Below are positions 17,754 through 33,480 of a stretch of DNA of 64,000 nt, in pieces (position 1 is the stretch's first letter; each line of letters starts with the position of its first letter). Below the pieces are notes generated by a model. The model saw nothing but the letters and a program-made list of their open reading frames with translations, had not been told where the DNA came from and did no database searches. This DNA is from Stutzerimonas stutzeri. Lineage in GTDB: Bacteria > Pseudomonadota > Gammaproteobacteria > Pseudomonadales > Pseudomonadaceae. The stretch covers positions 1,984,001 through 2,048,000 of the forward strand of contig NC_015740.1 in NCBI RefSeq assembly GCF_000219605.1, written 5' to 3'. The translations under genes were made by a program, and so were the position numbers.

Positions 17754-18593
17754 TCAGCCGGCCACGGCGCTGAGTTTGGCCAGCTGCTCGAGGTCGGTGT
17801 GCATGCCGGAGGTTTCGCGGATGCGGGCGAGGATCTCGCGCTTGAGCTCAGTGAATTCCGGCGCGAGCTTCATGTCCTGGTGGCGCTGGGCCGGCAGCGG
17901 TACCTCGTAGATGGAATCGATGCGCCCGGGGCGTGGCGCCATCAGCACGATGCGGCTGCCCAGATAGATGGCTTCTTCGACATCGTGGGTGACGAACAGG
18001 ATGGTGCTCTTCTCCAGCCGGTGTACGTGACGGATCAGGTCATGCATGACTTCGCGGGTTTGCGCATCCAGCGCGCCGAAGGGCTCGTCCATCAGCAGTG
18101 TCGCGGGTCTGGGCAGCAGGGCGCGGGCAATGGCAACGCGTTGCTGCATGCCGCCGGAGAGCTGGCTGGGGTAGGCATCGGCGAAGCGCGTCAGACCCAT
18201 CAGGTTGAGCAGGGCATCGGCGCGGCCGGCGGCGGACTCCACGTCTCCATCGTGGCGCACGGTATCGCCGATCACCTTGAGCTGGCGGCAGAACTTGATG
18301 TTCTGCATCACCGTCAGCCAGGGGTAGAGGCTGTAGTGCTGGAAGACCATGGCACGGTCGACGCCGGGGCCGTCGATGGGCCTGCCGTCGAGCAGGATCT
18401 CGCCGCGACTCAGCGTCTCCAGGCCGGCGATGATGCGCAGCAGGGTGGACTTGCCGCAGCCCGAGGCGCCGACGAAGGTGACGAACTCGTTGGGCTGGAT
18501 GTCCAGGTCGATCGACTGCAGCGCCTGCACCTCACGGCGCTCGCTGACGAAGGTCTTGCCGACCTGGCGTACACGAATCTTGGCATCGGACAT
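17754..18593 (-). CDS. ABC transporter ATPase, NitT/TauT type
   Basis: A 279-residue ABC ATPase. Walker [10 protein letters not shown] (about 40-48), Q-loop [10 protein letters not shown], signature LSGGMQQR, Walker [12 protein letters not shown], and H-loop VTHD are all intact. The family is that of SsuB/TauB/NrtD. It is the last gene of the 26.3-to-17.7 kb riboswitch operon and directly follows its permease; together with the binding protein at the other end they make a full importer. ATG 18593 is used because GAGGA lies seven bases upstream; ATG 18599 would overlap the permease stop. Confidence 0.88.
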
Positions 18594-18595
18594 GG

Positions 18596-19474
18596 TCATT
18601 TCCTCATCCAGGGAAAGGCGCGGCGGTGCAACCAGCGGAAGGCCTGATCGGTGATCAGGCCGATGAGACCGATGAGCAGGATGCCCGCGAAGATCTTGTC
18701 GGTGTGCATGTAACGCTGCGCCTTGAGGATGGCGTAGCCGAGGCCGGAGTTGGCCGCGACCAGTTCGGCTACCACCAGGTAGGTCCAGGCCCAGCCACAG
18801 GTGATGCGCAGGGTGTCGAGCAGCGCCGGCTTGGCCGAAGGCAGGATCACCAGCTTGACGATCTCGCTGCGGTTGGCGCCCATGGTCTGCGCCGCCTCGA
18901 TCTGCGCCATGGGTACGCGGCGCACATCCTCGGCGACCATCAGCACCATCTGGAAAAAGGTGCCGATGAAGATGATCAGCACCTTGGAACCTTCGTCGAT
19001 GCCGACCCAGAGCATCACCAGCGGAATGAAGGCCACGGCCGGCATATAACGGATGAAGTCGGTTAGCGGTTCGAGAAAGGCCTGCACCGGCCGGTACGTG
19101 CCGATGTACAGCCCCAGCGGCAGGGCGATCAGTGCCGAGGCGCCGAAGCCGGCCATGACACGCCAGACGCTGATGCCGATGTCTCCCAGCAGCCCCTCGC
19201 TGGTCCACCAGCGGCCGATGCGCTCGAGCACTGCGCCGGGGCTGGGCATGAACATCGGGTCGGCCAGACCAAGGGCGGTCCACAGCCACCAGACGACGAA
19301 GGGCAGGCTCAGCCCGGCGCCGGTGAGCAGCCAGGCGCTGCGCCGCGAGAGCTCGCCGCGAATGCGCCAGAAACTGCCTCTGCGGACCACCGGTTCGGCT
19401 CGTGCGACGGGTGCTGTGGTGTGTCGTTGTTGAGCGGCGGGGGCAGTGGAGGGAATGCTGATCTGTGCGGTCAT
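18596..19474 (-). CDS. ABC transporter permease, NitT/TauT type
   Basis: A 292-residue inner-membrane protein with about six hydrophobic helices and the BPD_transp_1 EAA-type cytoplasmic loop (IEAAQTMGANRSEIVKLVILPSA). A long polar N-terminus (about 45 residues) precedes the first helix. Ending QAFRWLHRRAFPWMRK is usual for SsuC/TauC relatives. Its start overlaps the preceding gene by four bases. Confidence 0.88.
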   Translation of the reverse strand: MTAQISIPSTAPAAQQRHTTAPVARAEPVVRRGSFWRIRGELSRRSAWLLTGAGLSLPFVVWWLWTALGLADPMFMPSPGAVLERIGRWWTSEGLLGDIGISVWRVMAGFGASALIALPLGLYIGTYRPVQAFLEPLTDFIRYMPAVAFIPLVMLWVGIDEGSKVLIIFIGTFFQMVLMVAEDVRRVPMAQIEAAQTMGANRSEIVKLVILPSAKPALLDTLRITCGWAWTYLVVAELVAANSGLGYAILKAQRYMHTDKIFAGILLIGLIGLITDQAFRWLHRRAFPWMRK

Positions 19475-20280
19475 GCGGGGACCTCCTCTGTAGCGGTAGG
19501 CACATCCAGTTCGACGCGTTGCCAGCCGCCGGCCGCCGGATAACGGCCCAGCGCGGCGAGGTCCGCGGCGGGCAGACTGGCGGGGTCGGCGAAGTTCCAG
19601 TAGCTCGACAGCAGCGCGTCGCCGACGCGGCCGGGCAGCGTCGAATGGGTGATCTGCCAGGGTGTGGCGCCGTTGCGGTGGCGGCCGAAGGACAGCTCGC
19701 AGGCCAGCAGCTGCGGCCGCAACGCGGGCCCGACGGCGGCCAGCTGTTCACGCAGATGCCCCGAGCTGGCCGGCAGCAGAATCGGCCGCTCGGCGGCGAA
19801 CAGGAAGTAGTCGCCCGCTACCAGCAGGCAGGCCTGGCGGGCTGGCTGCTCCGCCGCGCGCAGCCAGATACCCCAGTTGCGCCCCTGCGATTCCGGCAGG
19901 CGCTGCCAGATTTCGTGATAGCTGCCGTCCAGCCCGTCTTCCAGCAGCCGTTCCGAGGTCTCGAAGCGCATCAGGCCGATATCCGCAGGCCCGCCCGGCG
20001 GCTGGAAGTCGATCAGGCGATGCCACTGGCAGATATCGCCGTTGACCTCGGTGATGCCGGCAAAGCCGGCCTGTTCACTCAGCGCCAACTGCTGGGCATG
20101 GCTGCAGGTTTCAAGCGAAGCTGCCGGTGCCACGGGTTGACCCCCCGGCAGACGCAGGTCGGCGTGCAGGCAGGCGGTCTGCAGCCAGTAGACTTCGCTG
20201 GTTTCGTCGCGCAGGCCGGCCGTGGTGGTCAGCAGGCGGCGGCGCCAGACGCCGAGATAGGCATCGGGAACGGTTTTCAT
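19471..20280 (-). CDS. Unrecognised protein in the riboswitch operon
   Basis: A 269-residue protein without signal peptide or membrane helices. I do not recognise the family with confidence. It is rich in Trp, Gln and Leu with repeated short beta-like stretches: VYWLQTACLHADLRLPGG, FAGITEVNGDICQWHRLIDFQPPGGPADIGLMRF, a YHEIWQRLP segment and AACELSFGR-type strands. That pattern looks like a beta-barrel (lipocalin-like) small-molecule-binding or isomerase protein, possibly related to proteins annotated HRI1-like. GGAG lies eight bases upstream of the ATG. It overlaps the permease gene by four bases, so it belongs to the guanidine-I riboswitch operon. No catalytic residues can be assigned. Confidence 0.7.
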   Translation of the reverse strand: MKTVPDAYLGVWRRRLLTTTAGLRDETSEVYWLQTACLHADLRLPGGQPVAPAASLETCSHAQQLALSEQAGFAGITEVNGDICQWHRLIDFQPPGGPADIGLMRFETSERLLEDGLDGSYHEIWQRLPESQGRNWGIWLRAAEQPARQACLLVAGDYFLFAAERPILLPASSGHLREQLAAVGPALRPQLLACELSFGRHRNGATPWQITHSTLPGRVGDALLSSYWNFADPASLPAADLAALGRYPAAGGWQRVELDVPTATEEVPA

Positions 20281-20329
20281 GGGTAATGCTCCGCAAATGA
20301 CGTGCTTCGGGCGCGATCAGGCTGGGGGG

Positions 20330-20989
20330 TCATGGCGATCCCTCCAGTTGGCTCAGCAGCTCTTGGCTGTCGATCACGCTGCCGAACAGGCCGCCTTCCA
20401 CCTCGATCATCGCCAGCGCAGCCGCATGCAGTTGCGGGTCGGCCGAGGCGCAGGCGTCGCGGACGGTCAGGCAGTCGAAGCCAAGGTCGATGGCCTGGCG
20501 CAGCGTCGAGGCCACGCAGACCTCGGTGGTCACGCCGGTCAGGATCAGCCGCTCGATGCCGCGGCGGCGCAGGATCAGTTCGAGATCGGTATGGGCGAAG
20601 GCGCTGTAGCCCGGCTTGTCGATCACCGGCTCGCCGGCGCGCGGTTGCAGCTCGTCGATCAGGTCATGGCCGAATTCGCCGCGCACCAGCAGGCGGCCGA
20701 GGGGGCCAGGGCTGCCGATGGCAGCGCCGGTGGCCTGGGCGCGGCGGCGTTTGGGCTCGGGCAGGTCGGAAAGATCCGGTCGATGGCCTTCACGGGTGTG
20801 CACCACCAGCATGCCCACGCCGCGCGCGCAATCCAGCAGCGCCTGGATCGCCGCGATCGGTGCGCGCAGGCGGCTAACGTCCATGCCGGCCTGGTCGGCG
20901 TATCCACCCAGCGCGCAGAAGTCGCGCTGCATGTCGATCACCAGCAGCGCCGTGTGCTCGAGGAGCAGCGGATGCGTCGTCAGGCTCAC
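20330..20989 (-). CDS. Isochorismatase-fold amidohydrolase, biuret/guanylurea-hydrolase-like
   Basis: A 219-residue cysteine hydrolase of the isochorismatase superfamily with the complete triad Asp19 (VIDMQRDF), Lys125 (IDKPGYSAF) and Cys158 (GVTTEVCVASTLR). The triad spacing, and text such as HTREGHRPDLSDLP, IGSPGPLGRLLVRGEFG and DLIDELQP, closely follow biuret hydrolase as I remember it (Asp36, Lys142, Cys175, a constant offset of 17). Biuret hydrolase makes allophanate; the related guanylurea hydrolase feeds guanidine metabolism. Both products are handled by enzymes encoded nearby. The GTG start shares GTGA with the creatininase stop and has AAGGAG eight bases upstream. The exact substrate is not readable. 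Confidence 0.85.
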   Translation of the reverse strand: MSLTTHPLLLEHTALLVIDMQRDFCALGGYADQAGMDVSRLRAPIAAIQALLDCARGVGMLVVHTREGHRPDLSDLPEPKRRRAQATGAAIGSPGPLGRLLVRGEFGHDLIDELQPRAGEPVIDKPGYSAFAHTDLELILRRRGIERLILTGVTTEVCVASTLRQAIDLGFDCLTVRDACASADPQLHAAALAMIEVEGGLFGSVIDSQELLSQLEGSP

Positions 20990-21747
20990 AGCGCAAACTC
21001 CTTGCACACCGCGGCGGCGATGCCTTCGACGATGTCGTGGGCCAGCCGCTGGCCTTTCGCCGCGCTGGAGCCTCTGGCCGAGGACAGCACCCCGGAGGGC
21101 GGCACCCATTCGGTACGGGTGGGGTACATGTCGTAGGGCGGAAAGTCGGCCGGGGCGTCGTCGGGAATCTTCTCCAGCGCGACCAGTTGCGGATGGAAAT
21201 GCAGCATCAGCGAGGTCTCGATCACCGCGGCATGCTCCAGCGCGAAACCGGGGAAGCCTTCCGGGAAGATGTCGGTCAGGGTCTGCTCGTGGCAGAAATC
21301 CCAGTGCTCCAGGCGCATTACCTCCAGCCCGGCGTCCGGCCCGAGGTCGCGCAGCGCCAGCTGGATGCCCTCGGCGACGAACCACTGGTTCTCGTAATGC
21401 CCGAGCACCAGCACCAGGCGGCGCACACCGTGGCGATGGAACTCACGCACGGCGTCGCGCACCAGGGCGCTCAAGGTTGCGCCATCCAGGCTGGTGGTAC
21501 CGCAGAAGTGCTGGCCGCCGCCGCATTTCGGTTGCGACTTGTAGCCGTATGACAGCGCCGGTGCCACCAGCCCGCCGACTCGTGCCGCCACGTCGGCGCT
21601 GATGGCACTGGCCAGTAGCGCGTCGGTGCCCAGCGGCAGGTGCGGGCCATGTTGCTCGGTGGCGCCGCAGGGCAGAAAGACCACGGCGCCTTCGCGCACG
21701 CGGCGTTCGTAATCGACCCAGCTCAGTTGATCCATGTGCACGGTCAT
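20986..21747 (-). CDS. Creatininase-family amidohydrolase
   Basis: A 253-residue protein with all five metal ligands of Pseudomonas creatininase at a constant offset of three: Glu31, His33 and Asp42 (ATEQHGPHLPLGTD), His117 and Glu119 (LGHYENQW). The surrounding text (GGGQHFCGTTSLDGATLS, IEAEGI-type helix, IETSLML, PPYDMYP) is closer to true creatininase than to the wider family. Creatininase opens creatinine to creatine. In the remembered P. putida enzyme a Trp (Trp174) closes over the substrate; the equivalent position appears to be Phe168 here, so the substrate may differ. No creatinase gene is present in the window. Four-base overlaps link it to both neighbours. Confidence 0.85.
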   Translation of the reverse strand: MTVHMDQLSWVDYERRVREGAVVFLPCGATEQHGPHLPLGTDALLASAISADVAARVGGLVAPALSYGYKSQPKCGGGQHFCGTTSLDGATLSALVRDAVREFHRHGVRRLVLVLGHYENQWFVAEGIQLALRDLGPDAGLEVMRLEHWDFCHEQTLTDIFPEGFPGFALEHAAVIETSLMLHFHPQLVALEKIPDDAPADFPPYDMYPTRTEWVPPSGVLSSARGSSAAKGQRLAHDIVEGIAAAVCKEFAL

Positions 21748-22628
21748 GCGCAGGTGCTCCTTGTCGCGATTGAAAGGGGACGTTCCGGCCAGCCGGCGAT
21801 CAGCGCGGCGGTGGTGATCAGGGCGGCGCCGAGCCATTCGTTCGGGCCGATGGCGTGGCTGCCGAACCAGGCGGACGACAGCACCGCGGCGATCAGCTCG
21901 AACACCACCAGCACCGCGGCGCGGCCGGCTTCCAGATGAGTCAGGCCGTACTGTACGGCGGCCATGCTGACCAGCCAGCCGAGGGCGAGCAGGGCGATCT
22001 GCCAGCTCAGGGTCAGATCCAGGGGCGGAAGTGGCTGGCGCAGCAGCAGGCAGAACAGCCCACCGAGCAGCGCGCTGCCGACGAAACTGACCAGCGCCTT
22101 GCTCGCCAGCGGCACCCGGTCGGCGGCGCGAGTGGCGAGGTTGTTGAGGCTGAAGGCGAGGCCGGCGGAAAGCGCCAGCCAGTCGTTTGCGCCGGGCGCG
22201 GCCAGCGCTTCGCTCGTGACGCCGAGGGTCAGGCCGATGCCGAGCATCGCCAGCCCCAGGGCGAACAGCCGCGTGCCGTTGAGGCGTTCGCCCAGCAGCA
22301 GCCAGCCGCCGACCATCGCCCACACCGGTGCCAGGTAGAACAGCAGCATCACCCGCACCACGTTGCCCTCCGCCAGGGCGGTAACCAGGGCGGCGGTGGC
22401 CCAGCCACCGCACAGGCCCATGGTGAGCACCTGGCGATACTGGCTCGCCCACTGGCGGCGCTGCTGCCAGAGCACCGGCAGCGCCAGCAGGCTGAGCAGC
22501 GAATAGGTCAGCAGCACCAGCGGCATGCCGGCCAGGCCGCGGGCGGCGAAGAACTGCAGCGGCAGCCAGCCCAGCCCCCACATGATGGCGCCGCCGATCA
22601 GCATGCCCTGTGGCATCAGGCTGTTCAT
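21744..22628 (-). CDS. EamA/DMT-family transporter
   Basis: A 294-residue membrane protein with ten hydrophobic helices in two EamA repeats (about 5-135 and 150-285). Repeat hallmarks are LLFYLAPVWAMVGGWLLLGERLNG in the first half and VLVVFELIAAVLSSAWFGSHAIGPNEWLGAALI in the second. Such transporters export or exchange amino acids and metabolites. In guanidine-I riboswitch operons, exporters of the SMR class are common; an EamA carrier could export guanidinium, an amine or an acid by-product. It overlaps SDR and creatininase genes by four bases at each end. Confidence 0.82.
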   Translation of the reverse strand: MNSLMPQGMLIGGAIMWGLGWLPLQFFAARGLAGMPLVLLTYSLLSLLALPVLWQQRRQWASQYRQVLTMGLCGGWATAALVTALAEGNVVRVMLLFYLAPVWAMVGGWLLLGERLNGTRLFALGLAMLGIGLTLGVTSEALAAPGANDWLALSAGLAFSLNNLATRAADRVPLASKALVSFVGSALLGGLFCLLLRQPLPPLDLTLSWQIALLALGWLVSMAAVQYGLTHLEAGRAAVLVVFELIAAVLSSAWFGSHAIGPNEWLGAALITTAALIAGWPERPLSIATRSTCA

Positions 22629-23380
22629 GCGCCCATCCAGGAGCCGCCGTTGGGCCCGAGCAGCTGTCCGGTGAAATAGCTCGCCTGCGGCGAAAGCAGG
22701 AAGACGATGGCCGCCGCGACTTCCTCCGGCGTACCCAGGCGCGCCATGGGGATCGCCAGCTCCTTGGCCATCCACTCGTCGCTCATGTGCTCCGGGCTGA
22801 CCATCGCCGTGGCGATGGGGCCGGGTGCGACGCCATTGATGCGGATGCCGTCTGCAGCGAACTCGCGGGCCAGTGAGCGGGTCAGGCCGATCACCCCGGC
22901 CTTGGCCGTGCAGTAGGCGGCGTACTGTTCGCGGCCGAGAAATCCGAGGTCCGAGGCGACATTGACGATGGCGCCGCTGCGCCGCGGCTGCATCTGTGCC
23001 AGTGCATGGCGGCAGCAGCGGTAGACGCCGGCGAGATCGACGCCCAGCACCCTTGCCCAGTCGGCCTCGCTGGTTTCGAGAAAGGGCTTTTCCAGGATCA
23101 CCCCGGCGTTGTTGACCAGCAGATCCAGCGGTCCCTGTGCCTCGATGGTCTCGAACATTGCCGCCACCGCAACCGGATCGCTGACATCGGCCTCGATGGC
23201 CCAGGCGCAGCCGCCGCTGGCGATGATCTGCTCGACCATTCGTTCCGCCAGGTCGTGTTGATCGCGATGATTGATCCAGACCCGCGCGCCTTCGGCGGCC
23301 AGCGCGAGTGCGGTGGCACGGCCGATGCCGGTCGCTGCGCCGGTGACCAGAGCGGTCAGCCCGGTAAGGATGGCAGCCAT
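22625..23380 (-). CDS. SDR-family dehydrogenase/reductase
   Basis: A 251-residue classical short-chain dehydrogenase. It has the cofactor motif TGAATGIG, NNAG, catalytic Ser in NVASDLG, and YCTAK with Tyr and Lys. A basic NHRDQHD segment after beta-2 hints at NADP preference. The rest resembles FabG/glucose-dehydrogenase-like enzymes (PGPIATAMVSPEH). It starts on a TGATG overlap with the previous SDR gene. Its substrate is unknown; two successive SDRs after a membrane oxygenase-like protein suggest stepwise oxidation of a hydroxylated intermediate. Confidence 0.85.
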   Translation of the reverse strand: MAAILTGLTALVTGAATGIGRATALALAAEGARVWINHRDQHDLAERMVEQIIASGGCAWAIEADVSDPVAVAAMFETIEAQGPLDLLVNNAGVILEKPFLETSEADWARVLGVDLAGVYRCCRHALAQMQPRRSGAIVNVASDLGFLGREQYAAYCTAKAGVIGLTRSLAREFAADGIRINGVAPGPIATAMVSPEHMSDEWMAKELAIPMARLGTPEEVAAAIVFLLSPQASYFTGQLLGPNGGSWMGA

Positions 23381-24168
23381 CAGTGCATCACCTCGCCGTG
23401 GCTGACCGACAGCGCCTGGCCGGTCAGGGCGGCGGCCAGCGGTGAGCCGAGGAACAGGAAGGTGCCGCCCAGATCGGCCGGTGTCAGCAGCTCCGGAATG
23501 GCCTGGTTGGCGAGTATCGCCGCGAGCTCGGCGCTGTCGCTGCGGCCGTTGGCGTCCGCCATCACCTTCAGCGAGCGCATGGCCGCATCGGTGCCGATCC
23601 AGCCGGGGCACACCGCGTTCACCCGGATGCGCCGCGGGCCCAGCTCCCAGGCCAGCGAGCGGGTCAGGCCGACCACCGCGTGCTTGCTGGCGACATAGGC
23701 GGAAAAGCCCGGCACGCCTTTCAGACCCCAGATGGAGGCCTGGTTGATCACGCTGGCGCCGGCGCGCAGGCGTGGCAGCAATGCGCGGGTCAGGCGCTGC
23801 ATGGAACCGACGTTGTTCTCCAGCAGGGCCGACCAGCGCTGATCGGCCTCGAAGCTGCACTCGCCCAGCGGCGTGGCGTACTCGACGCCGGCGTTGTTGA
23901 TCAGCACATCGGCGTTGAGGCCGCGGCAGGCGAGGTCATCGGCGTACTGCTGCACCGCCTGCCGATCACCCAGGTCCAGTGCGGTGCAGTGCAGCAGCGT
24001 CTCGCCAGCGAGTTCGTCGGCGAGCCGGGCGAGGGCGTCGGCGTCACGGTCCAGCAGCTCCAGGGTGGCGCCGGCAGCGGCGAAGCTCTGCGCCAGGCCC
24101 CGGCCGATGCCCCCGGCGGCGCCGGTGATGACCACGCAACGGCCTCGGTAATCCAGTGCCTTGTGCAT
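23380..24168 (-). CDS. SDR-family dehydrogenase/reductase
   Basis: A 262-residue classical SDR: cofactor loop TGAAGGIG, acidic ELLDRDAD after beta-2 (NAD preference), NNAG, catalytic Ser in NQASIWG, and YVASK. Compared with the next gene it has a longer substrate loop (MRSLKVMADANGRSDSAELAAILANQ). The start lies two bases after the desaturase-like gene. Likely works in series with it and the second SDR. Confidence 0.85.
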   Translation of the reverse strand: MHKALDYRGRCVVITGAAGGIGRGLAQSFAAAGATLELLDRDADALARLADELAGETLLHCTALDLGDRQAVQQYADDLACRGLNADVLINNAGVEYATPLGECSFEADQRWSALLENNVGSMQRLTRALLPRLRAGASVINQASIWGLKGVPGFSAYVASKHAVVGLTRSLAWELGPRRIRVNAVCPGWIGTDAAMRSLKVMADANGRSDSAELAAILANQAIPELLTPADLGGTFLFLGSPLAAALTGQALSVSHGEVMH

Positions 24169-24169
24169 G

Positions 24170-25192
24170 TCACACCGCCGTCAGGAACGAGACGCCCACG
24201 GCGCCGTAGAAGTTGTCGGCCTTGTTCGGTCCTTCGCTGACCACCCCGTAGTCATCGTCCAGCACGCGGCGTACGCGGTAGCGGTGGAAGCTGCCGAGCA
24301 GCTTGCGCATCGGGATGACCTGGTTGTAGGTGCTGCCGTACAGCTCGGCGTGGAGCTTGGGCAGGCGATACCAGGGCGCCACCGGCTTCTCGTGGTGGGC
24401 GTTGTGGAAGGAAAAGTTGAGCAGCAGCAGGTTCAGCGCCGGCCAGCGCTCGGAAACCACGTTGCTGTAGGTGTTCTGCTGCTCGTAGCTGCGGTCGCGG
24501 CGCTTGTCCTCCGGCAGCTTGCCACCGTCCTCCAGCACGGCGAAGGCCTCGTAGGTGTGCTGATAGGCATCGGCGAAACGCAGCACGCTGAGCATGATCA
24601 TCCAGGCCACGGCGTAGAGCAGCACGGCCTTCAGCGAGAGCACCGCGAGCCCGGCAAAGAGTAGTGTGCGAATGGCCAGCACCGCGGCGACCTTGCCGCG
24701 CCGGGCGCGGTGCTTGTCGTTGTCGGTGATGAAGGGAAGGGCGATCACATAGAAATGCATGATCAGCTCCACCGCCGGCACATAGGCCCATTCCAGCGCC
24801 AGCACCAGCTTCTGGAACCACAGCGGGCGTGCCTTGAGGAAGGCCTTGCTGTCGAAGGTGATCACGTCGGCGCGGTCGACGTGGTGGCGCATGTGCTTCT
24901 TGCGCAGGTCCTGGAATTCGGCGTAGCAGCTGCCGCACAGCCAGCTGCAGACATTGCCGGCCCATTCGTTGTGCTTGGGCACGCTGAAGATGGCGCCGTG
25001 GGCGAATTCGTGGACCAGGTAGGCGGCGATGATCATGCCGTGGGCCAGCAGCAGCGTGCCCAGCACGTTCAGCCAGCCGTTACCGACGAACAGCAGAGCC
25101 AGGCCGCCGCCGTAGGCGAGCGCGGTATAGAGGATCGCCAGCGTGTTGGGCAGGCGGCCATCGGCGTAACGGTACAGAGGTTTGGCAGTCAT
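24170..25192 (-). CDS. Membrane di-iron fatty-acid-desaturase-family protein (desaturase/hydroxylase)
   Basis: A 340-residue integral membrane protein with four to six hydrophobic helices and the three histidine boxes of the membrane di-iron superfamily: HEFAHG (His61, His65), HMRHH (His100, 103, 104) and HNAHHEKP (His263, 266, 267), plus a further DAYQHTYE (His212). These residues bind the two irons that activate oxygen for desaturation or hydroxylation. The family is mostly lipid-acting, but relatives hydroxylate alkanes and small polar molecules. Location under a guanidine-I riboswitch, with a small-molecule importer, dehydrogenases and amidohydrolases, argues for a soluble nitrogen compound as substrate. 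An electron donor (rubredoxin/ferredoxin) is not encoded nearby. Confidence 0.82.
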   Translation of the reverse strand: MTAKPLYRYADGRLPNTLAILYTALAYGGGLALLFVGNGWLNVLGTLLLAHGMIIAAYLVHEFAHGAIFSVPKHNEWAGNVCSWLCGSCYAEFQDLRKKHMRHHVDRADVITFDSKAFLKARPLWFQKLVLALEWAYVPAVELIMHFYVIALPFITDNDKHRARRGKVAAVLAIRTLLFAGLAVLSLKAVLLYAVAWMIMLSVLRFADAYQHTYEAFAVLEDGGKLPEDKRRDRSYEQQNTYSNVVSERWPALNLLLLNFSFHNAHHEKPVAPWYRLPKLHAELYGSTYNQVIPMRKLLGSFHRYRVRRVLDDDYGVVSEGPNKADNFYGAVGVSFLTAV

Positions 25193-25209
25193 GGTTTTTC
25201 TCCAGCACA

Positions 25210-25227
25210 GGCGGGCGACGGCCCGCC
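25210..25227 (-). other. Hairpin between binding-protein and desaturase-like genes
   Basis: GGCGGGC / GCCCGCC, 7-bp stem with a 4-base loop, in the 45-base gap after the binding-protein stop. On the minus strand no U-tract follows, and a GGAGAAAAACC ribosome site comes next. It probably works as an mRNA stability or partial termination element that keeps the binding protein in excess. Confidence 0.5.
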
Positions 25228-25237
25228 CGGCGTCGGC

Positions 25238-26239
25238 TTACTGGGCGAGCGCTTCGGTGAACTGGGCGTCGTAGGTCTGGCTGAAATCCGGGATGGTCGG
25301 GATCTGCCCGTTGTCCTTGAGCAGCTTGGCGATGATCGCGCCGCTGCCATGGAAGGAATGGGTGTCGTCGCCTGGGGTGAAGCTCTTGCCCATCTCCGCA
25401 AGGGGGATGTTGTAGGCGCCGGCCATCTGCTCGACGGCTTCTTCGGCGCTGACGCCGAGCACCTCGCCGATGATCTTCGCCGACTCCTCGGGGTGCGCCT
25501 GCATGTAGGCCAGGCCGTCGAGATAGCCCTGGATCATCGCCTTGATGGCGGCGGGCTTTTTGGCGATCACCGCCTCGTCGAAGACCAGCACGTCGGTGAT
25601 CAGCCCTGGTGCGTCCTTGGACGAATAGACCACCTTGAATTTGTCGCCGCCGCCCATGGAGAGGATCTGCGAAACGTTGGGCTCGTAGGTCACGCCGACC
25701 GGCAGGTTGCCCGAGGCCATGGCGCCGGGGATGCCTTCCGGAGTCATGTTGACGGCGTCGATGTCCTTGTCGCTCATGCCGTTCTGCTGCAGCGCGTAGG
25801 CCAGCAGGAAGTCGGAGGGCGACAGCGGGTTGAAGCCGACCTTCTTGCCCTTGAAGTCGGCGATGGACTGGATCGACGCGTCGGCAACGATGGCGTCACC
25901 GCCGTTGGAGAAGTCGATGGGCATCACCACGCGGTGCTTCAAGCCCTTGGCGACCGAGGCCACTACCTGATCGTAGGTGAGCATGCCACCGTCCAGCGCG
26001 CGGCTGAGCATGGCGGTGGGGATCAGCGCCGGGTCGTTGAAGAACTGCAGGTCCACGTCCAGGCCGTGGGGCTTGAACAGGTCTTTCTTGTCGGCGACGT
26101 AGAAGGGGCCATAGCCGGCCCAGACCACGGTGCCGATCTTCAGCTTCTCGGCGGCCTGGCTGGCCAGCGGTGAAAACAACGTCGCGACGGCCAGGCCGGC
26201 GGCGAGGAGGGTCTTGTTCAGCGAGCGCAGTGTGGACAT
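25238..26239 (-). CDS. ABC transporter substrate-binding protein, NMT1/TauA type
   Basis: A 333-residue periplasmic binding protein with a 29-residue signal peptide ending SQA and a mature start EKLKIGTVVWAGYGPFYVADKKDLFKPHGLDV, typical of the NitT/TauT (NMT1-like) group. It is the first gene after the 26.3 kb guanidine-I riboswitch. The cognate permease and ATPase are the last two genes of the same operon. The ligand is unknown; it differs strongly from the urea-carboxylase-type binding protein at 14.1 kb, so the two systems should take up different compounds. Confidence 0.88.
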   Translation of the reverse strand: MSTLRSLNKTLLAAGLAVATLFSPLASQAAEKLKIGTVVWAGYGPFYVADKKDLFKPHGLDVDLQFFNDPALIPTAMLSRALDGGMLTYDQVVASVAKGLKHRVVMPIDFSNGGDAIVADASIQSIADFKGKKVGFNPLSPSDFLLAYALQQNGMSDKDIDAVNMTPEGIPGAMASGNLPVGVTYEPNVSQILSMGGGDKFKVVYSSKDAPGLITDVLVFDEAVIAKKPAAIKAMIQGYLDGLAYMQAHPEESAKIIGEVLGVSAEEAVEQMAGAYNIPLAEMGKSFTPGDDTHSFHGSGAIIAKLLKDNGQIPTIPDFSQTYDAQFTEALAQ

Positions 26240-26288
26240 GGCGTGATTTCCCTACACATTGGAATGACAGGCACGGGATGACATCGCG

Positions 26289-26379
26289 TCTCCCGGGCTT
26301 TTATCCCTCCGTGTAGTCCCGTCCCTGGGACCGGAGAACTCTCGGACCAGCGCCCACTCCCTGTGAGCCGGAACCCTAG
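26289..26379 (-). promoter_or_regulatory. Guanidine-I (ykkC) riboswitch, unit 1
   Basis: Read on the minus strand, the element has the conserved ykkC blocks in order: CTAGGGTTCCG (from 26379), TGGTCCGAGAG, and ACACGG followed by GGGATAAAAGCCCGGGAGA at the 3' end. These are the signature parts of the guanidine-I aptamer, which binds free guanidinium. It ends about 50 bases before the ATG of the binding-protein gene. No U-run terminator lies between, so control may be at translation or by a structure I cannot fold by eye. It should switch on the ten-gene operon 26239 to 17754. Confidence 0.93.
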
Positions 26380-26686: not shown

Positions 26687-27658
26687 TCAGATTGGCACCG
26701 GCGCATCCTCGCGCAGCAGGCCGTCGCGCTTGAGGGTCTGCCAGAACTCGCGGGGCACCTGGGTGTTGAAGTATTCCATGTACTGCCGAGGACGCTCGGG
26801 ATTGGCCGTGCCCGGGATGACCGAGGCGACCACCGGGTTGGCCAGGCAGAAGTGCAGGACGGCGGCCCGCAGATCGACGCCGCAGCGCTCGGCAGCGGCC
26901 TTGAGCTGCTCCCTGCGCTGGGCGACCTGTGGTGGGATCTGGTCGTACTCATAGTGATCGCCACCGGCCAGGACGCCGGAGTTGAACGGTCCCCCAACGA
27001 CGACGCCAACGTCGCGTGCCTGGCAGGTCGGGAACAGGGTGTCCAGCGCCTCGTCGTGCTCCAGCAGCGAGTAGCGGCCGGCCAGCAGGAACACGTTCGG
27101 GTCGCTCTGCTCCAGAGCCAGGCGGCATGGCTCGACCAGGTTGACCCCCAGGCCCCAGCCGCGAATCACGCCTTCATCGCGCAGCTGGGTCAGCGCCTTC
27201 GCCGCGCCGTTCATGGCCTGCTGGAAGTACTCGCGCCATTGCGGGCCCCATTGGTCTTCGGAAACGTCGTGGATGAACACCACATCGAGGCGATCGACGC
27301 CCATGCGCTCCAGACTGTCCTCGATGGAGCGGCGTGCGCCGTCGGCCGAATAATCCGGCACGCGCTTGTTGGGCAGCTCGTCGACGAAGGGCTTGGCGTT
27401 TTCCGGCTGGCTGGCCGGCTGCAGCAGGCGCCCGACCTTGGTGCTCAGGACGTACTCGTCACGCGGCTTGCCACTCAGCAGGCGCCCGAAGCGCTGCTCG
27501 GCCAGGCCCGCGCCGTAGTGCGGCGACACGTCGTAATAGCGAAAGCCGGCGTCCCAGGCGGCATTGAGGGTGGCGTCGGCGGTTTCTTCGCTGAGCGGAT
27601 GGAACATGTTTCCCAGCGGTGCGCCGCCGAGACCGATGCGTGGCAGGGTGATACGCAT
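26687..27658 (-). CDS. Aldo/keto reductase
   Basis: A 323-residue (alpha/beta)8 NADPH-dependent reductase. The AKR residues are visible: Asp and Tyr in YYDVSPHYGAG, Lys in STKVGR, His in FIHDV. The terminal PGTANPERPRQYMEYFN is the usual cofactor-binding end of the D-threo-aldose/L-fucose/pyridoxal dehydrogenase branch. AAGGAGG lies five bases before the ATG. It is 132 bases downstream of allophanate hydrolase on the same strand, so it may be a tail gene of the guanidine operon, without an obvious step to fill in guanidine breakdown. Confidence 0.85.
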   Translation of the reverse strand: MRITLPRIGLGGAPLGNMFHPLSEETADATLNAAWDAGFRYYDVSPHYGAGLAEQRFGRLLSGKPRDEYVLSTKVGRLLQPASQPENAKPFVDELPNKRVPDYSADGARRSIEDSLERMGVDRLDVVFIHDVSEDQWGPQWREYFQQAMNGAAKALTQLRDEGVIRGWGLGVNLVEPCRLALEQSDPNVFLLAGRYSLLEHDEALDTLFPTCQARDVGVVVGGPFNSGVLAGGDHYEYDQIPPQVAQRREQLKAAAERCGVDLRAAVLHFCLANPVVASVIPGTANPERPRQYMEYFNTQVPREFWQTLKRDGLLREDAPVPI

Positions 27659-27790
27659 GGAGTCCTCCTTCGGATGCAGATGGCGCCGACCGGAGTCGGC
27701 GTGGCTCTGCATCGGAGGTCGGTCCGGCGCTGGATGTTCCGACAATGCGACGGGATGGCCGCAGTGCAACCCCGTCGCTCCTCGTCTGCC

Positions 27791-29593
27791 TCAGCTGCGA
27801 CGCTTCAGATAGGTGCGCCAGCCGCCAAGCTCGGTTATGTCCTGGGCGCCGTCCAGGCCGTAGGGCTCGCAGATGAAGCCTGTTTCCCTGCGGCCGTCGG
27901 CGAGCTGCACCTTGCCCAGGCCGAGCGGTGCCGGAATGCCGGTGAGAAAGGAGCCGAGTTCCTGGCTCGGCAGCTCCCAGACTTCAACCTCGACGGCCGC
28001 TCCGCCTTCGGCGACGCGAACCATGCCCGGGCGCAGCGGTGGCCCGCCGGCCAGCGCGTAGAGCTTGTAGTCCGGCGAGCTGCGGGTGGTTTCCAGCAGC
28101 CGTCCGCCACGCTGCCTGAGTTGCCAGTTCAGCGGCAGGCCGTCCAGGTGCGCTCCGCAGACCACCAGGCGGGCGCGGTCGTTGCGGGCCGGATTCCGGG
28201 GCGGCGGGGTAATGAGCGCGTTGCCGCCGATCAACTTCAGCCCTGTCTGATGCTGCAGCGCATCGGCCAGGCTCAGCAGGTACTGGTCGGTGAACACCCG
28301 GCCGAACAGCGTCACGCCCCAGGGCAGGCCGTTGTGCATGGTGGCGGCCGGCACCGCGACAGCGGCGTAGTCGAGCATGTTCATGAAGTTGGTGTAGTAG
28401 CCCAGGTCCGAATTGCGCTTGACCGGCTCGGCGTGAAGTTCGGCGAGCGTCACTGGGCGCGGGTAGGCGGGCGTCAGCACACAATCGACCTCGGCCATGG
28501 TGCGGTCGCAGACGGCCTTGAGTTGCTGCAGGCGGTATTGCGCCTGGAACAGCTGCACGGCGGTTGTACCGGGGGCTTTCTCCAGAACGGCTTTTATTAC
28601 CGGCAGCACGGCGTCGGGCTGCTGCTCGATCAGCGCTCCCGCCACGCTGTAGCGTTCGGCCACCCAGGGGCCTTCGTAGAGCAGGCGTGCAGCTTCGAGG
28701 AAGGGGGCGAAGTCCACTTCCACCGGCTCGCCGCCGAGGGCTTTCAGCTGTTCGATGGTGGCGGCGAACAACGCCGCGCTTTCCGCGCAGCCGAGAAATT
28801 CCAGGTGCTGGGGTATGCCGAAGCGGAAGGTCTTGATCTGGCCGAAGGCCGAGCCGTCATTCCACAGCGGGTTGCTACGGCTGTACTCGTCGCGCGCATC
28901 GAGCCTGGCGGTGAGCGCCAGCAGCTGACTGGCTTCGGCCGCCGTGGCGGTGAAGAAGGTCACGCAGTCCAGCGTACGGCAGGCCGGGACAACGCCGGCG
29001 GTGGAGATCAGCCCTTTGCTCGCTTTCAGGCCCACCAGGTTGTTCAGCGCCGCCGGCACCCGGCCGGAACCGGCGGTATCGGTGCCCAGCGCGAAGGAAC
29101 AGAGCCCGAGCGCAACGGCTAGCGAGGAGCCAGCGCTGGAGCCGCCGGAGGGGTAGTCCGGGTGCACCGAGTTGCGGCATTCGCCATAGGGCGAGCGGGT
29201 GCCGTTGAGGCCGGTGGCGAACTGGTCGAGGTTGGTCTTGCCCAGCGGCACCGCGCCGAGGGCGATCAACTGATCGACGACGGTGGCGCTGGTCTCCGGT
29301 GTGTAGGCATACGCGGGACAGGCGGCGGTGGTGGGTACGCCGACGAGATCGATGTTGTCCTTGATGGCGAAGGGAATGCCGTAGAGCGGCAGCTCGGCGG
29401 GCGTCTTGCCGTCGAGGGCGGCCAGATACGGCTCGAGCTCCGCGGCCGTCATCAGGTGGATGAATGCGTTGAACTCAGGGTTGAGTTCCGCAGCCTTGTC
29501 GCGCAGTGCAATGAACAGCTGGCGCGGGGTGATGTCCCCGGCGGTGTAGGCGGCGCTCAGGGTGGTGAGGCGCAGGTCGAATGTCGTGGTCAT
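27791..29593 (-). CDS. atzF: Allophanate hydrolase
   Basis: A 600-residue amidase-signature enzyme. Catalytic Lys78 (AIKDNID), cis-Ser152 (SGGSSAGSS) and Ser176 (GTDTAGSGR) have the same spacing, 74 and 24 residues, as Lys91/Ser165/Ser189 of characterised AtzF. The C-terminal part (about 440-600) matches the AtzF C-terminal domain seen in stand-alone allophanate hydrolases. It splits allophanate to carbon dioxide and two ammonia, the last step of guanidine breakdown. It lies 129 bases after the carboxylase gene, a gap that holds repeat hairpins. Confidence 0.94.
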   Translation of the reverse strand: MTTTFDLRLTTLSAAYTAGDITPRQLFIALRDKAAELNPEFNAFIHLMTAAELEPYLAALDGKTPAELPLYGIPFAIKDNIDLVGVPTTAACPAYAYTPETSATVVDQLIALGAVPLGKTNLDQFATGLNGTRSPYGECRNSVHPDYPSGGSSAGSSLAVALGLCSFALGTDTAGSGRVPAALNNLVGLKASKGLISTAGVVPACRTLDCVTFFTATAAEASQLLALTARLDARDEYSRSNPLWNDGSAFGQIKTFRFGIPQHLEFLGCAESAALFAATIEQLKALGGEPVEVDFAPFLEAARLLYEGPWVAERYSVAGALIEQQPDAVLPVIKAVLEKAPGTTAVQLFQAQYRLQQLKAVCDRTMAEVDCVLTPAYPRPVTLAELHAEPVKRNSDLGYYTNFMNMLDYAAVAVPAATMHNGLPWGVTLFGRVFTDQYLLSLADALQHQTGLKLIGGNALITPPPRNPARNDRARLVVCGAHLDGLPLNWQLRQRGGRLLETTRSSPDYKLYALAGGPPLRPGMVRVAEGGAAVEVEVWELPSQELGSFLTGIPAPLGLGKVQLADGRRETGFICEPYGLDGAQDITELGGWRTYLKRRS

Positions 29594-29609
29594 CTCATGT
29601 CCCTCGTAG

Positions 29610-29695
29610 GGTGGAAAACGGCGAAGCCTTTTCCACCGCGATGTTCGTTGCCGGCCCGCTGGGCCGGTTGGTGGATCGATAAAGCGCGATCCACC
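29610..29695. repeat. Cluster of three hairpin repeats (REP-like) between carboxylase and atzF
   Basis: Three inverted repeats in 86 bases: GGTGGAAAA / TTTTCCACC (29610-29618, 29629-29637, with an inner GGC/GCC pairing), CCGGCCC / GGGCCGG (29651-29657, 29661-29667), and GGTGGATCG / CGATCCACC (29670-29678, 29687-29695). The GGTGGA...TCCACC pair looks like a dispersed intergenic repeat family of this Pseudomonas group. Likely effects are transcript stabilisation or differential expression. Confidence 0.6.
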
Positions 29696-29722
29696 CGACG
29701 TTGCTTCGGGTGCCGAGGGGCC

Positions 29723-32700
29723 TCACGCCTCCTCGATCACCACCACCCGCTGGCCTGCGCGCACCGGCGAGCCGGGCTGGGCGCGGACTTCCTTGACCAC
29801 GCCGGCGACCGGCGCGGTGAGCGGGATTTCCATCTTCATGCTCTCGAGGATCACCAGCACGTCGCCGGCCTCGACCCGCGTGCCCTCGGCCACCGACACC
29901 TGCCAGAGGTTGCCGGCAATGTGGCTTTCGATGCCGTGCTGGCCGGCGCCGAGCGGGGCGTCCTCGCCGAGGTCGGCGGCGACTTCCTCGCTCTCGAAGT
30001 GCGCCTGGCCCGATTCGATCCAGCGCTGGCGCTCGGCGTCGAAGGCGCCGCGCTGCTGGCGACGGAAGGCGTCGATGCTGTCGGCCTCGGCGGCAAGAAA
30101 GTCCTGGTAGTCGGACAGGCGCAGCTCGGTGTTCTCGATCTTCAGCGGGTAGCGGCCCAGCGGGAAATCGCGGCGGATCCTCACAAGCTCCTCCGCCGAG
30201 ACCGGGTAGAAGCGGATCTGGTCGAAGAAGCGCAGCAGCCACGGCAGGCCGCCGAACGCCTCGACCGCGCGGTAGCGGTTCCACATCTGCAGGGTGCGGC
30301 CGACGAACTGGTAGCCGCCCGGGCCTTCCATGCCGTAGATGCACATGTAGGCGCCGCCGATGCCCACCGAGTTCTCCGCGGTCCAGGTGCGCGCCGGGTT
30401 GTACTTGGTGGTGACCAGGCGGTGGCGCGGGTCCAGCGGGGTGGCCACCGGCGCACCGAGGTAGACGTCGCCCAGGCCCATCACCAGATAGCTGGCGTCG
30501 AACACCGTGCGGTACACCGCCTCGAGATTCGGGAGGTCGTTGATGCGGCGGATGAACTCCAGGTTGCTCGGGCACCAGGGCGCGTCCTTGCGCACCGTGG
30601 TCATGTACTTCTCGATGGCCAACTGGCAGGCCGGGTCGTCCCAGGACAGCGGCAGGTGGACGATGCGCGAGGGCACCTTCAGGTCCTGCGCGGCGCACAC
30701 GGCATCCCACAGGCCGGCGACAATCTCCAACAGATTCTCCAGCGCCAGGGTCTCGGGCTGGTAGTGCACCTGCAGGGAGCGGATGCCGGGCGTCAGGTCG
30801 ATGACGCCGTCGAGCTGCTTGGCTTCGAGGGCCTGCATCAGCGCATGGCCACGGAAGCGCAGCACCAGGTCCAGCTCCGGCGCGCCGATTTCCAGCAACA
30901 GGTGGGTGTCGCCGGAGAGGCGGGCGACCAGGCGGCTGTCCGCTTCACCGATATCGAGCACGATGGGCGACTGCAGCGCCACCGGCGTGGCGACCACGGC
31001 CGCCGGCGCGAGGCTGGCGCACTCGGCATCGGCGGCCTTGGCCAGCTGGCGTGCGGTCAGCACGTCCACCGGCACGAAGCGCACCTTGTCGCCGGCCTTG
31101 AGCTGGCCGAGCTGCCACAGATCCGCCTCGATGATGGTCACCGGGCAGACGAAGCCGCCCAGGCTCGGGCCGTCCGGGCCGAGGATCACCGGCATGTCGC
31201 CGGTGAAGTCCACCGCGCCGATGGCGTAGGGGTTGTCGTGGATGTTCGATGGGTGCAGGCCGGCCTCGCCGCCGCTCTCGCGCACCCACTCGGGTTTCGG
31301 GCCGATCAGGCGCACCCCGGTGCGGCTGGAGTTGAAGTGCACTTCCCAGTCGGTGGCGAAGAACTTGTCGATATAGCCTTCGGTGAAGTATTCCGGCGCG
31401 CCGTGCGGGCCGTAGATCACCCGCAGCTCGCGCACCGCCGGCAGGGCGCTGCACAGCTCGGCGGCGAGCCTGGCGCCGGCCGACGAGTCGCTCAGCGGTG
31501 CCAGGTGCAGCACGTCGCCGGCGCGCAGGGCGCGGCCACCGTGGCCGCCGAACTGGCCGAGGGTGAAGGTGCTCTTGCTGCCCAGATACTCCGGCACCTG
31601 CACCCCGCCGCGCACGGCCAGGTAGGAGCGCGCACCGGCGCCGGCAATAGTGCCGATGGTCAGGGTGCGGCCGGCCGGGACGAAAATGGCGGTGCACATC
31701 GGCTGTTCGACGTCATCGAGCTTCACGGGGATCGCGGCGCCGGTCAGCGCCACCACCGCGTCGGTGTTGAAGCGCAGGATCGGCCCGCTCATGGTGATTT
31801 CCAGCCCGGCAGCGTCCTCGGGGTTGCCGAGCAGGGCGTTGCCCAGGCGCAGCGCGCGTCTGTCCATCGGGCCGGACGGCGGCACGCCCACCGCCCAGTA
31901 GCCGAGGCGGCCGGGGAAGTCCTGCACGGTGGTCTGGGTGCCGGCGCTGATCACCTCGAAGGTGCTGGCCGAATAGCGCAGACCTTCCAGGCAGCGGGTC
32001 CAGGGCGTGCCGAGGGCGAAGGGGGCAAAGCCGAGGATCTGGCGCAGATAATCGCGGTTGGTTTCCACGCCGTAGAGCAGGGTGTCGCCGAGGGCGGCGT
32101 CCAGCGCGACGCGGGCCGCTTCGCGGCTCGGCGCGCAGCTGATGACCTTGGCGATCATCGGGTCGAAATACGGCGGGATCTCGCAGCCGGCTTCGACCCA
32201 GGTGTCGATGCGCAGGCTCTTGCCGTCAGCGGCCGGGAAGGCCACGGCGGTCAACAGGCCCGGGCTCGGCTGGAAGTCGCGGCCCGGGTCCTCGGCGTAG
32301 ACGCGCGCCTGGATCGCGTGGCCGCTCGGCTTGAGATCCTTCACCAGCTCGGCCAACGGCGGCAGGTCGCCGGCGGCCAGCTCGATCATCCAGCGCACCA
32401 GGTCCACGCCCCAGACCTGCTCGGTGACGCCGTGCTCCACCTGCAGGCGGGTGTTTACCTCGAGGAAGTAGAAACGCTCGGCTTCGGCGTCGTAGACGAA
32501 CTCCACGGTGCCGGCGCTGCGATAGCTGACCGCCTTGGCCAGGGTGATCGCCGCCTGGCACAGGGCCGCGGCCATGCCGACCGGCAGGTTCGGCGCCGGG
32601 GTTTCCTCCAGCACCTTCTGGTTGCGCCGCTGTACCGAGCAGTCGCGCACGCCCAAGGCAATGACTTCGCCGGCGCCGTCGCCGAACACCTGCACCTCCA

Positions 32701-33322: not shown

Positions 33323-33324
33323 GG

Positions 33325-33480
33325 TCAGTAACCCTCGAAGGGCTGGCGGGCCGTCCCGCCTTTATTCATCAGTGCCACGGCCGTCCGTGGTTGGGGAGGG
33401 TTCTTCGTTGCCGGTCGCTGGGGTCGCTGCCCGGCGCGCGCCTGCAGCAGCGGCAGCAGGTAGCGACGTAACAGCGGCAT
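33325..33480 (-). CDS. Small frame filling the cgdB-carboxylase gap (51 codons)
   Basis: The ATG overlaps the cgdB stop by one base (TGATG) and the stop lies two bases before the carboxylase ATG, so the frame fills the whole 150-base gap exactly. The peptide starts [19 protein letters not shown], a basic amphipathic Leu/Pro segment, and ends in GTARQPFEGY. I do not recognise it. The end also encodes the carboxylase ribosome site. In high-GC DNA an open frame of this length can occur by chance, but the double coupling is notable. It could be a real small protein or only a translational bridge. Confidence 0.4.
   Translation of the reverse strand: MPLLRRYLLPLLQARAGQRPQRPATKNPPQPRTAVALMNKGGTARQPFEGY

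Follow-up and report, generated by a model that had tools for sequence, protein, structure and literature searches.

The lyase MgdL, which cleaves N-(hydroxymethyl)guanidine, was described in 2025 from Vreelandella boliviensis; the account in PMC12508155 gives Asp49 and Arg51 as its catalytic residues, places a Trp/Glu/Asp pocket inside a beta-barrel, and states that hydroxymethylguanidine also breaks down slowly unaided. As described there, the MgdH/MgdL operon is under Guanidine-I control, encodes an importer, and has the guanidine carboxylase pathway adjoining. All of these features recur at the locus reported here, together with a homologous lyase bearing the same catalytic Asp and Arg. 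However, hydroxylation in V. boliviensis is assigned to a 2-oxoglutarate dioxygenase, whereas we propose a membrane di-iron protein that belongs to a different family, and our locus differs further in its separate riboswitch operon and in an extra SDR-creatininase-amidase-EamA module. The guanidine carboxylase operon (carboxylase, CgdAB and AtzF), which degrades free guanidine, adjoins this locus in the window (the whole 64,000-nucleotide stretch of Stutzerimonas stutzeri DNA that was analyzed) and has the same riboswitch class and a related ABC importer, but there it is without di-iron oxygenase, lyase and creatininase. The classical creatinine pathway (creatininase, creatinase and sarcosine oxidase) likewise uses a creatininase-family ring amidohydrolase; in contrast, the operon in the window has no creatinase, a changed Trp-Asp pair in its enzyme, and a coupling to dehydrogenases and an oxygenase. 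With the guanylurea/biuret hydrolase pathway of metformin breakdown it shares an isochorismatase-fold amidase close to biuret hydrolase, although this amidase scores below the biuret-hydrolase cut-off and is set in an oxidative operon.

Layout and conservation of the riboswitch operon

A Guanidine-I aptamer was found at 26390-26288 on the minus strand using the Rfam covariance model RF00442 (86.4 bits; gathering threshold, 63). The match is full-length (positions 1-107 of 107), and the end coordinate in the initial annotation, 26379, leaves out 11 bases of it. The aptamer is predicted to bind guanidine and to control the ten minus-strand open reading frames downstream. At six of their nine junctions, neighboring frames share 1 or 4 bases, at one they lie 1 base apart, and at the remaining two the spacing is 45 and 49 bases. 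The initial annotation had described an aptamer followed by ten packed genes with mostly 1- to 4-base overlaps, a description borne out by the Rfam match and the reading frames, and its gene labels agreed with our Pfam and NCBIfam results. The predicted importer consists of a periplasmic substrate-binding protein (SBP; NMT1/SsuA-like, 25238..26239, PF09084, 95.5 bits), a core gene found in 68 of 70 distinct complete loci, an ABC permease (18596..19474, PF00528, 96.2 bits) and an ABC ATPase (17754..18599, PF00005, 110.3 bits).

The adjoining guanidine carboxylase operon (26687..36787, minus strand) is the predicted taker of released guanidine. It is preceded by its own Guanidine-I element (36787-36690), behind which lie genes for a permease, an ATPase, CgdB and CgdA, an internal Guanidine-II element (33392-33346), and genes for the carboxylase (33322-29723), an allophanate hydrolase (29593-27791) and an aldo/keto reductase (27769-26687). 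Between the importers of the two operons, the ATPases are 44% and the permeases 34% identical; identity to the counterparts in certain betaproteobacterial carboxylase operons (L095 and L103) is 66 to 71%.

Of 77 distinct related loci whose 5' end is intact, 72 carry a Guanidine-I element directly in front of this gene set, in genomes ranging across Pseudomonas, Paraburkholderia, Thiomonas and Acidithiobacillus. The set that the initial annotation had proposed to look for behind ykkC aptamers elsewhere was thus found there, and the opposite outcome, in which the genes would be dispersed and unconnected with such elements, did not arise. Since both RF00442 elements of the genome lie inside this island and the arrangement recurs in other genera, it is more than chance. 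Moreover, CgdA scored above the cut-off in all 50 genomes tested that have the di-iron gene, compared to 7 of 29 without it, and within the genus in 29 of 29 compared to 2 of 20 (Fisher p of 8e-14 and 2e-11, respectively, in statistics that ignore kinship). Judged by gene content and order, the set is a conserved guanidine-I regulon beside, and co-occurring with, guanidine breakdown genes.

Minimal operons, consisting of Guanidine-I, SBP, di-iron enzyme, lyase, permease and ATPase, were present in two distinct genomes (L085 and L161), whose di-iron enzymes fell in the same clade of the tree as that of the window. These operons are without SDR, creatininase, amidase and EamA genes; on this comparison, we regard the SDR, creatininase and amidase genes as a module accessory to the core. 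The initial proposal that a substituted guanidine is imported and oxidized fits the gene content and the adjoining guanidine breakdown genes, but the predicted core is now an oxygenase with a lyase, and the hydrolases become accessory.

The lyase and its oxygenase partners

The gene at 19471..20280 had been labeled an unknown protein. As a reference for MgdL we used the proteins of two loci, L136 and L137, which stand in for V. boliviensis MgdL by gene order and residue numbering. L136 reads gca-mgdH-mgdL-atzF, its mgdL being a relative of the lyase gene in the window, and L137 reads gca-mgdH-mgdL with ABC transporter genes interposed before atzF, in line with the V. boliviensis order given in PMC12508155. 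The window protein was picked up by our lyase profile (A2) and is 32% identical to the protein at the MgdL position of L137 (E 1e-22), in which D49 and R51 bear the published catalytic residue numbers and align with D41 and R43 of the window protein. D41, R43, D25, Q34, W86, E114, Y121 and E123 (window numbering) were invariant in all 49 aligned rows, selected from the 87 lyases found and that of the window, and a D-x-R motif near the N terminus was present in 87 of 87 lyases. The predicted structure is all-beta (pLDDT 92), with beta-barrels as its top structural matches. The catalytic Asp/Arg pair and the W/E/D set in a modeled beta-barrel, the features expected of the family, are both present, the latter as candidate pocket residues. 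By homology, the product is an MgdL-family hydroxymethylguanidine lyase, and activity on N-(hydroxymethyl)guanidine is predicted for it. In the lyase tree MgdL falls within the di-iron-linked group, and approximately unbiased (AU) tests rejected neither alternative grouping (p 0.122 and 0.058).

The membrane di-iron enzyme (24170..25192) belongs to the fatty-acid-desaturase family (PF00487, 125.4 bits; cut-off, 29.7), and its HxxxH, HxxHH and HxxHH histidine motifs were invariant in the di-iron alignment (A1). Enzymes of this kind usually use lipids or alkanes. No electron-donor gene was seen within the operon. Sampling 398 genomes across the phylum at E 1e-6, we found 15 lyase genes in 14 of them; every one of these genes lay near one of two oxygenases and none near both, 10 being partnered by an MgdH-like dioxygenase with no di-iron gene and 5 by the di-iron enzyme with no MgdH-like gene. 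A search of the whole window at E 1e-4 gave no match to an MgdH-like 2OG/Fe(II) dioxygenase, and only 1 of 80 di-iron loci (L096) had an MgdH match anywhere on the locus. We infer that hydroxylation falls to the di-iron enzyme, with N-alkylguanidines as its putative substrates.

Several observations weigh against this scheme of hydroxylase and lyase. The genome does encode, outside the operon, a 2OG oxygenase with 42% identity to MgdH. Homologues of this oxygenase occur in 17 of 20 genomes that carry the di-iron enzyme and in 11 of 23 without it; this distribution leans towards operon carriers, yet three carriers are without it. In five of the 70 distinct complete loci (L082, L093, L097, L099 and L104), the profile detected no lyase to accompany the di-iron gene, and a looser order-wide search at E 1e-3 turned up two remote relatives of the lyase (L150 and L151) with neither oxygenase nearby. 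In L187, about 2.4 kb separates dioxygenase and lyase. Paralogues 43 to 50% identical to the di-iron enzyme were found in eight loci without the riboswitch pattern or a lyase (L152 to L159); therefore, specificity for guanidine does not extend to the entire di-iron family.

The creatininase module

Between the di-iron and lyase genes lie those for two short-chain dehydrogenases, SDR1 (23380..24168) and SDR2 (22625..23380; both PF13561/PF00106), an accessory EamA-family carrier (21744..22628, PF00892, 68.8 bits), a creatininase-family ring amidohydrolase (20986..21747) and an isochorismatase-fold amidase (20330..20989, PF00857, 160.8 bits). The creatininase homologue, a relative of PDB 1q3k/3a6e, passed the TIGR04448 equivalog cut-off (387.8 versus 235 bits). 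The Trp-Asp pair near the active site of the Pseudomonas putida creatininase probably matters for substrate; the window protein has F168/A169 at these positions, which were Phe/Tyr and Ala/Ser in all 65 orthologue rows, and the residues that we take to be metal ligands and catalytic residues were kept in 64 or 65 of the 65. The amidase is nearest to biuret amidohydrolase but below the NF050097 cut-off (272.4 versus 370 bits). Its nearest PDB chains are 6azo ("putative amidase") and 6xjm ("biuret hydrolase"), and D19, K125 and C158, presumably catalytic, were conserved across 61 rows. Neither dehydrogenase gene was ever found without creatininase, in 54 of 54 complete loci having SDR1 and 57 of 57 having SDR2.

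Proposed pathway and alternatives

Because the formerly unknown gene encodes an MgdL-family lyase, the core chemistry is most likely hydroxylation followed by lyase cleavage, that is, N-dealkylation. The operon would be a guanidine-induced system that imports a methylated or otherwise N-alkylated guanidine through the binding protein, permease and ATPase and strips off the alkyl group. The di-iron enzyme would hydroxylate the carbon beside the guanidine nitrogen, turning methylguanidine into N-(hydroxymethyl)guanidine, and the lyase would cleave this hemiaminal, releasing guanidine together with formaldehyde or a different aldehyde. The guanidine may then enter the adjacent carboxylase/CgdAB/AtzF route and also hold the Guanidine-I switch on. 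The SDR1-SDR2-creatininase-amidase(-EamA) module probably feeds this core from a creatinine-like ring, most likely one such as creatinine, converted to methylguanidine by C5 hydroxylation, oxidation to a 5-oxo ring, opening by the creatininase homologue and hydrolysis of the acyl-guanidine bond. We consider this reading as a whole, with a non-homologous hydroxylase, an MgdL-family lyase, delivery of guanidine to the carboxylase route and a creatinine-like ring module, reasonably probable. Sequence comparison establishes the gene content, riboswitch, lyase family with conserved catalytic residues, exclusivity of oxygenase partners and co-occurrence of CgdA; which compound is the substrate, and each reaction proposed for creatinine, are our proposals. 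Only tentatively do we suggest that enzymes cover the whole way from creatinine to guanidine. On this scheme, one desaturase/AlkB-type di-iron oxygenase (or a pair) would attack the C-H beside the guanidine nitrogen, both at C5 of creatinine and in methylguanidine; dehydrogenases, a repurposed creatininase and the amidase would free methylguanidine; and the HRI1-fold lyase would free guanidine, the end product, which through Guanidine-I would switch on the whole set. A single di-iron enzyme serving both compounds would be unusually broad; five loci (L092, L100, L103, L106 and L108) have a second copy.

The core could be right while the module handles glycocyamidine, another cyclic or acylated guanidine, or a carbon fragment from the lyase. 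The exchanged Trp-Asp pair may indeed mean an altered substrate, the amidase scores under its cut-off, and carriers include bacteria of sulfur and metal environments, such as Thiomonas (L087), that may seldom meet creatinine; however, the creatininase score, its retained active-site residues and the review report that P. stutzeri makes methylguanidine from creatinine (PMC11764249) make this doubtful. An ordinary creatininase yielding creatine, and then sarcosine and urea via creatinase, with the remaining operon serving another compound, is improbable. TIGR04448 membership would fit it, and the window's genome does carry a creatinase (PDB 1chm, 605 bits), but this lies 1.9 Mb from the operon, and the SDR genes always accompany creatininase. 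The classical creatine route is also unlikely because, at E 1e-100, creatinase was absent from 46 of the 50 tested genomes with the di-iron gene (present in 4); at least 2 of the 50 (G124 and G198) have minimal operons without creatininase. The exclusive pairing of SDR1 and SDR2 with creatininase, the missing creatinase and the P. stutzeri report thus lend support to the initially proposed creatinine-to-methylguanidine branch, for which oxalate would be a putative co-product. For this bacterial conversion, another review (PMC11970497) leaves it undecided whether enzymes carry out the oxidation.

Guanidine-I elements often control exporters, and the EamA and desaturase annotations could suggest a guanidine stress response in which membrane lipids are altered and guanidine or its derivatives exported. 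We regard this as very unlikely, since the conserved core is an importer with an MgdL-family lyase, minimal operons are without EamA, and every carrier genome tested also encodes CgdA, an enzyme of guanidine catabolism. It is equally hard to credit that the oxygenase and hydrolases, as first proposed, merely release methylguanidine to be used as such: oxygenase, SDR, creatininase and amidase are all present, but so is a hydroxymethylguanidine lyase homologue with catalytic residues, and the Guanidine-I switch of V. boliviensis is described as binding guanidine, not methylguanidine (PMC12508155).

Returning to oxidative N-dealkylation, the analysis ties to guanidine a gene set annotated piecemeal in many Pseudomonadota ("fatty acid desaturase," "hypothetical protein," "creatininase"). 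It suggests that guanidine demethylation by hydroxylase plus lyase is wider than the halophile example, with two unrelated oxygenases recruited, and makes two questions testable, namely, the source of environmental guanidine and the bacterial enzymes leading from creatinine to methylguanidine. If the creatinine route is true, it would supply the missing enzymes of that bacterial conversion, together with a membrane enzyme of the desaturase type whose substrate is a small cation, and would help explain how bacteria turn waste creatinine into usable nitrogen.

Guanidine riboswitches and gene content of the window

The ten minus-strand genes (26239-17754) that the initial annotation had placed behind a riboswitch were present as described, downstream of a Guanidine-I element found by Rfam at 26390-26288 on the minus strand. 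Pfam and NCBIfam matched the products to an NMT1/SsuA-type binding protein, an FA_desaturase-family membrane protein (25192-24170, minus strand; the di-iron enzyme), two SDRs, an EamA protein, a creatininase above the TIGR04448 cut-off, an isochorismatase-fold enzyme whose best model was biuret hydrolase with a score below the cut-off, and an ABC permease and ATPase. The protein initially annotated as unknown (20280-19471, minus strand), an MgdL-family lyase by its sequence, matched no Pfam or NCBIfam model at the thresholds applied. The di-iron protein shares 98% identity with its S. chloritidismutans counterpart (L033; L numbers denote loci in related genomes and G numbers genomes), and the lyase shares 93-94% identity with the S. 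chloritidismutans and S. frequens (L036) proteins.

Three guanidine riboswitches were detected in the window by Rfam, all on the minus strand. A second Guanidine-I element (36787-36690, minus strand) precedes the carboxylase operon, where it is followed by permease, ATPase, CgdB, CgdA, a Guanidine-II element (33392-33346, minus strand), a urea/guanidine-type carboxylase, allophanate hydrolase and, last, an aldo/keto reductase. Rfam found no Guanidine-I elements in the 4.55-Mb genome other than these two. Immediately upstream of the second, 36980-38449 (minus strand) encodes a methyl-accepting chemotaxis protein that scored below the CtpM cut-off and is possibly a guanidine sensor. Downstream of the ten-gene operon, 14138-16804 (minus strand) codes for a glutamine synthetase of type III (579.6 bits against the TIGR03105 cut-off of 469.6) and for a second binding protein (511.7 bits against the TIGR03427 cut-off of 333.9), the latter 58% identical to the binding protein adjoining the carboxylase operon of L138. 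Since no binding-protein gene was seen within the window's carboxylase operon, the TIGR03427 protein may serve that operon.

Among the publications listed as matches, PMC10535843 apart, we found none in which a desaturase-like gene or a creatininase is tied to a guanidine riboswitch. For Ectopseudomonas guguanensis, the accessible text of PMC13296017 reports guanidine-I riboswitches in a carboxylase operon and does not mention the genes of the ten-gene operon.

Conservation of the operon and its link to guanidine breakdown

An alignment of the di-iron enzyme was scanned against one genome per species, and the best 80 of 275 relatives were kept. Addition of four further loci gave 84 rows. L160 was treated as a duplicate of L085, leaving 83 distinct loci, 70 of them complete (84 and 71 with L160); many are close kin within Stutzerimonas and Pseudomonas, and the counts are not independent. 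Neighbour mapping of the best 80 of 275 relatives gave the usual order binding protein, di-iron enzyme, SDR1, SDR2, EamA, creatininase, amidase, (lactonase-like), lyase, permease, ATPase. Across the 70 distinct complete loci (best 80 of 275 plus four), the lyase was present in 65, creatininase in 60, SDR2 in 57, amidase in 55, SDR1 and EamA in 54 each, permease and ATPase in 53, and the lactonase-like gene, of the metallo-beta-lactamase fold and situated between amidase and lyase, in 48 (including L033:14524-15306). In these loci, SDR1 and SDR2 never occurred without the creatininase. Two distinct loci of this collection, L085 and L161, are minimal operons, with only binding protein, di-iron enzyme, lyase, permease and ATPase behind the riboswitch.

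A Guanidine-I pattern was observed within 900 bases upstream of the first gene, in practice at 55-180 bases, in 71 of the 77 distinct rows whose 5' end is intact (best 80 of 275 plus four). The pattern was verified by Rfam in all seven loci checked, and Rfam found a further element at L086, bringing the total to 72 of 77. The gene set thus recurs behind ykkC elements in other genomes, and the main inference of the initial annotation, a guanidine-linked catabolic operon, was upheld. No Guanidine-I element above the Rfam cut-off was found at L045, L090, L097, L099 or L112, the last four of which adjoin carboxylase-pathway genes.

Of the 70 genomes that gave a di-iron match, we compared 50 with 29 genomes that gave none; the 50 omit low-completeness genomes, those with a distant paralogue only and some others. 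CgdA (TIGR03424, above cut-off) was found in 50/50 genomes with the di-iron gene versus 7/29 without it and, within the window's genus, in 29/29 versus 2/20; Fisher values for this co-occurrence overstate the evidence, since the genomes are related.

Several loci depart from the usual arrangement. The Paraburkholderia operons L094, L101 and L107 lack SDR genes, and an SDR2-like gene (44-46%) near 7.8 kb is divergent from the riboswitch; L101 and L107 also have a divergent amidase gene adjoining CgdB. The di-iron paralogues at L155 and L158 have no riboswitch pattern and adjoin, by eye, a rubredoxin reductase-like gene. Five betaproteobacterial operons (L092, L100, L103, L106 and L108) carry a second di-iron enzyme that forms its own clade, and the first four have extra binding proteins, a combination that suggests two substrates.

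The creatininase branch

The window creatininase is a clear family member by TIGR04448 score and structure relatives. The residues that we take to be metal ligands and catalytic were kept in 64 or 65 of 65 rows, and the position of the Trp-Asp pair was occupied by Phe/Tyr and Ala/Ser in all 65. The nearest models to the lactonase-like gene were 4-pyridoxolactonase and AiiA, with scores below their cut-offs. The loci that lack this gene include the window, L036 and L162, and no clear remnant was seen by eye in the window's 49-base gap between amidase and lyase. In Acidithiobacillus (L086 and L090) it is kept, with SDR and creatininase absent.

Creatinine could be passed on by way of creatine, and the window's genome does encode a creatinase (PDB 1chm match, 605 bits). 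At E 1e-100, creatinase was detected in 4/50 genomes with the di-iron gene and 0/29 without it. Its absence from 46 of the 50 argues against the creatinase route as the main purpose of the module and indicates that the usual next step does not lead to creatine. The gene itself (G000:C1:135259-136467, L167, in the window's own genome) is rare (4/79 genomes searched) and adjoins, by eye, a LysR-type regulator-like gene.

According to a review (PMC11764249), methylguanidine and acetic acid are what P. stutzeri makes from creatinine, and a figure legend there marks one enzyme as still uncharacterised, which we infer to be that of the creatinine-to-methylguanidine step. Acetic acid is not the product that the oxidative scheme predicts. 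An oxidative chain from creatinine through creatol and creatone A or B to methylguanidine is given in another review (PMC11970497), which leaves undecided whether enzymes carry it out. The chain would be matched by a set made up of an oxygenase, dehydrogenases, a ring hydrolase and an acyl-guanidine amidase, and a creatinine branch of the operon is plausible.

Two oxygenases and one lyase family

In Vreelandella boliviensis, methylguanidine is demethylated by the 2OG dioxygenase MgdH and the lyase MgdL (PMC12508155). Among 17 loci with lyase relatives outside di-iron operons, an MgdH-like dioxygenase adjoined the lyase in 15 (L135-L149); none adjoined it in L150 and L151, the most distant relatives. 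Within the di-iron loci (best 80 of 275), an MgdH-like gene occurred in one, L096, where no lyase was found. A phylum-wide sample of 398 genomes (E 1e-6), which shares some genomes with the order-wide lyase sample, yielded 15 lyase genes in 14 genomes. Five were di-iron linked with no MgdH-like match on the locus (G000, the window; G008, L190; G038, L057; G102, L060; G787, L184), and ten were dioxygenase linked with no di-iron match (G005, G042, G453, G468 twice, G799, where about 2.4 kb separates the two genes, G866, G1052, G1105 and G1106). Since each of the 15 lyases lies near one oxygenase type and never both, the simplest interpretation is that the di-iron enzyme would take the place of MgdH in function.

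An unlinked MgdH homologue might instead be the true hydroxylase, as the window's genome encodes three 2OG oxygenases with 31-42% identity to MgdH. Relatives of the best one (E 1e-60) were found in 17/20 genomes with the di-iron gene versus 11/23 without it. At the same threshold, they were absent from G124, a minimal-operon genome, and from G021 and G038, all of which carry the di-iron gene, and this possibility is disfavoured.

In other Pseudomonadaceae (L138, L141 and L144), the guanidine carboxylase region carries an inserted lyase-MgdH pair, encoded on the opposite strand, with the ATPase gene on one side and a Guanidine-I element on the other. Creatininases of at least 55% identity were found in di-iron loci only and in none of the dioxygenase loci. 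In the lyase tree, Vreelandella-type lyases are nested in the di-iron group, and AU tests rejected neither alternative grouping and so favour no order of partner evolution. The alignment of lyase residues omits two partial sequences (L052, L109) and two distant ones (L150, L151), and close relatives were thinned.

Replacement of MgdH by the di-iron enzyme is the preferred reading. We have fair confidence, from gene neighbourhoods and homology, that the core mechanism would be hydroxylation followed by MgdL-type cleavage, with a non-homologous hydroxylase, and the operon is classed, on sequence grounds, as a putative new form of methylguanidine demethylation system.
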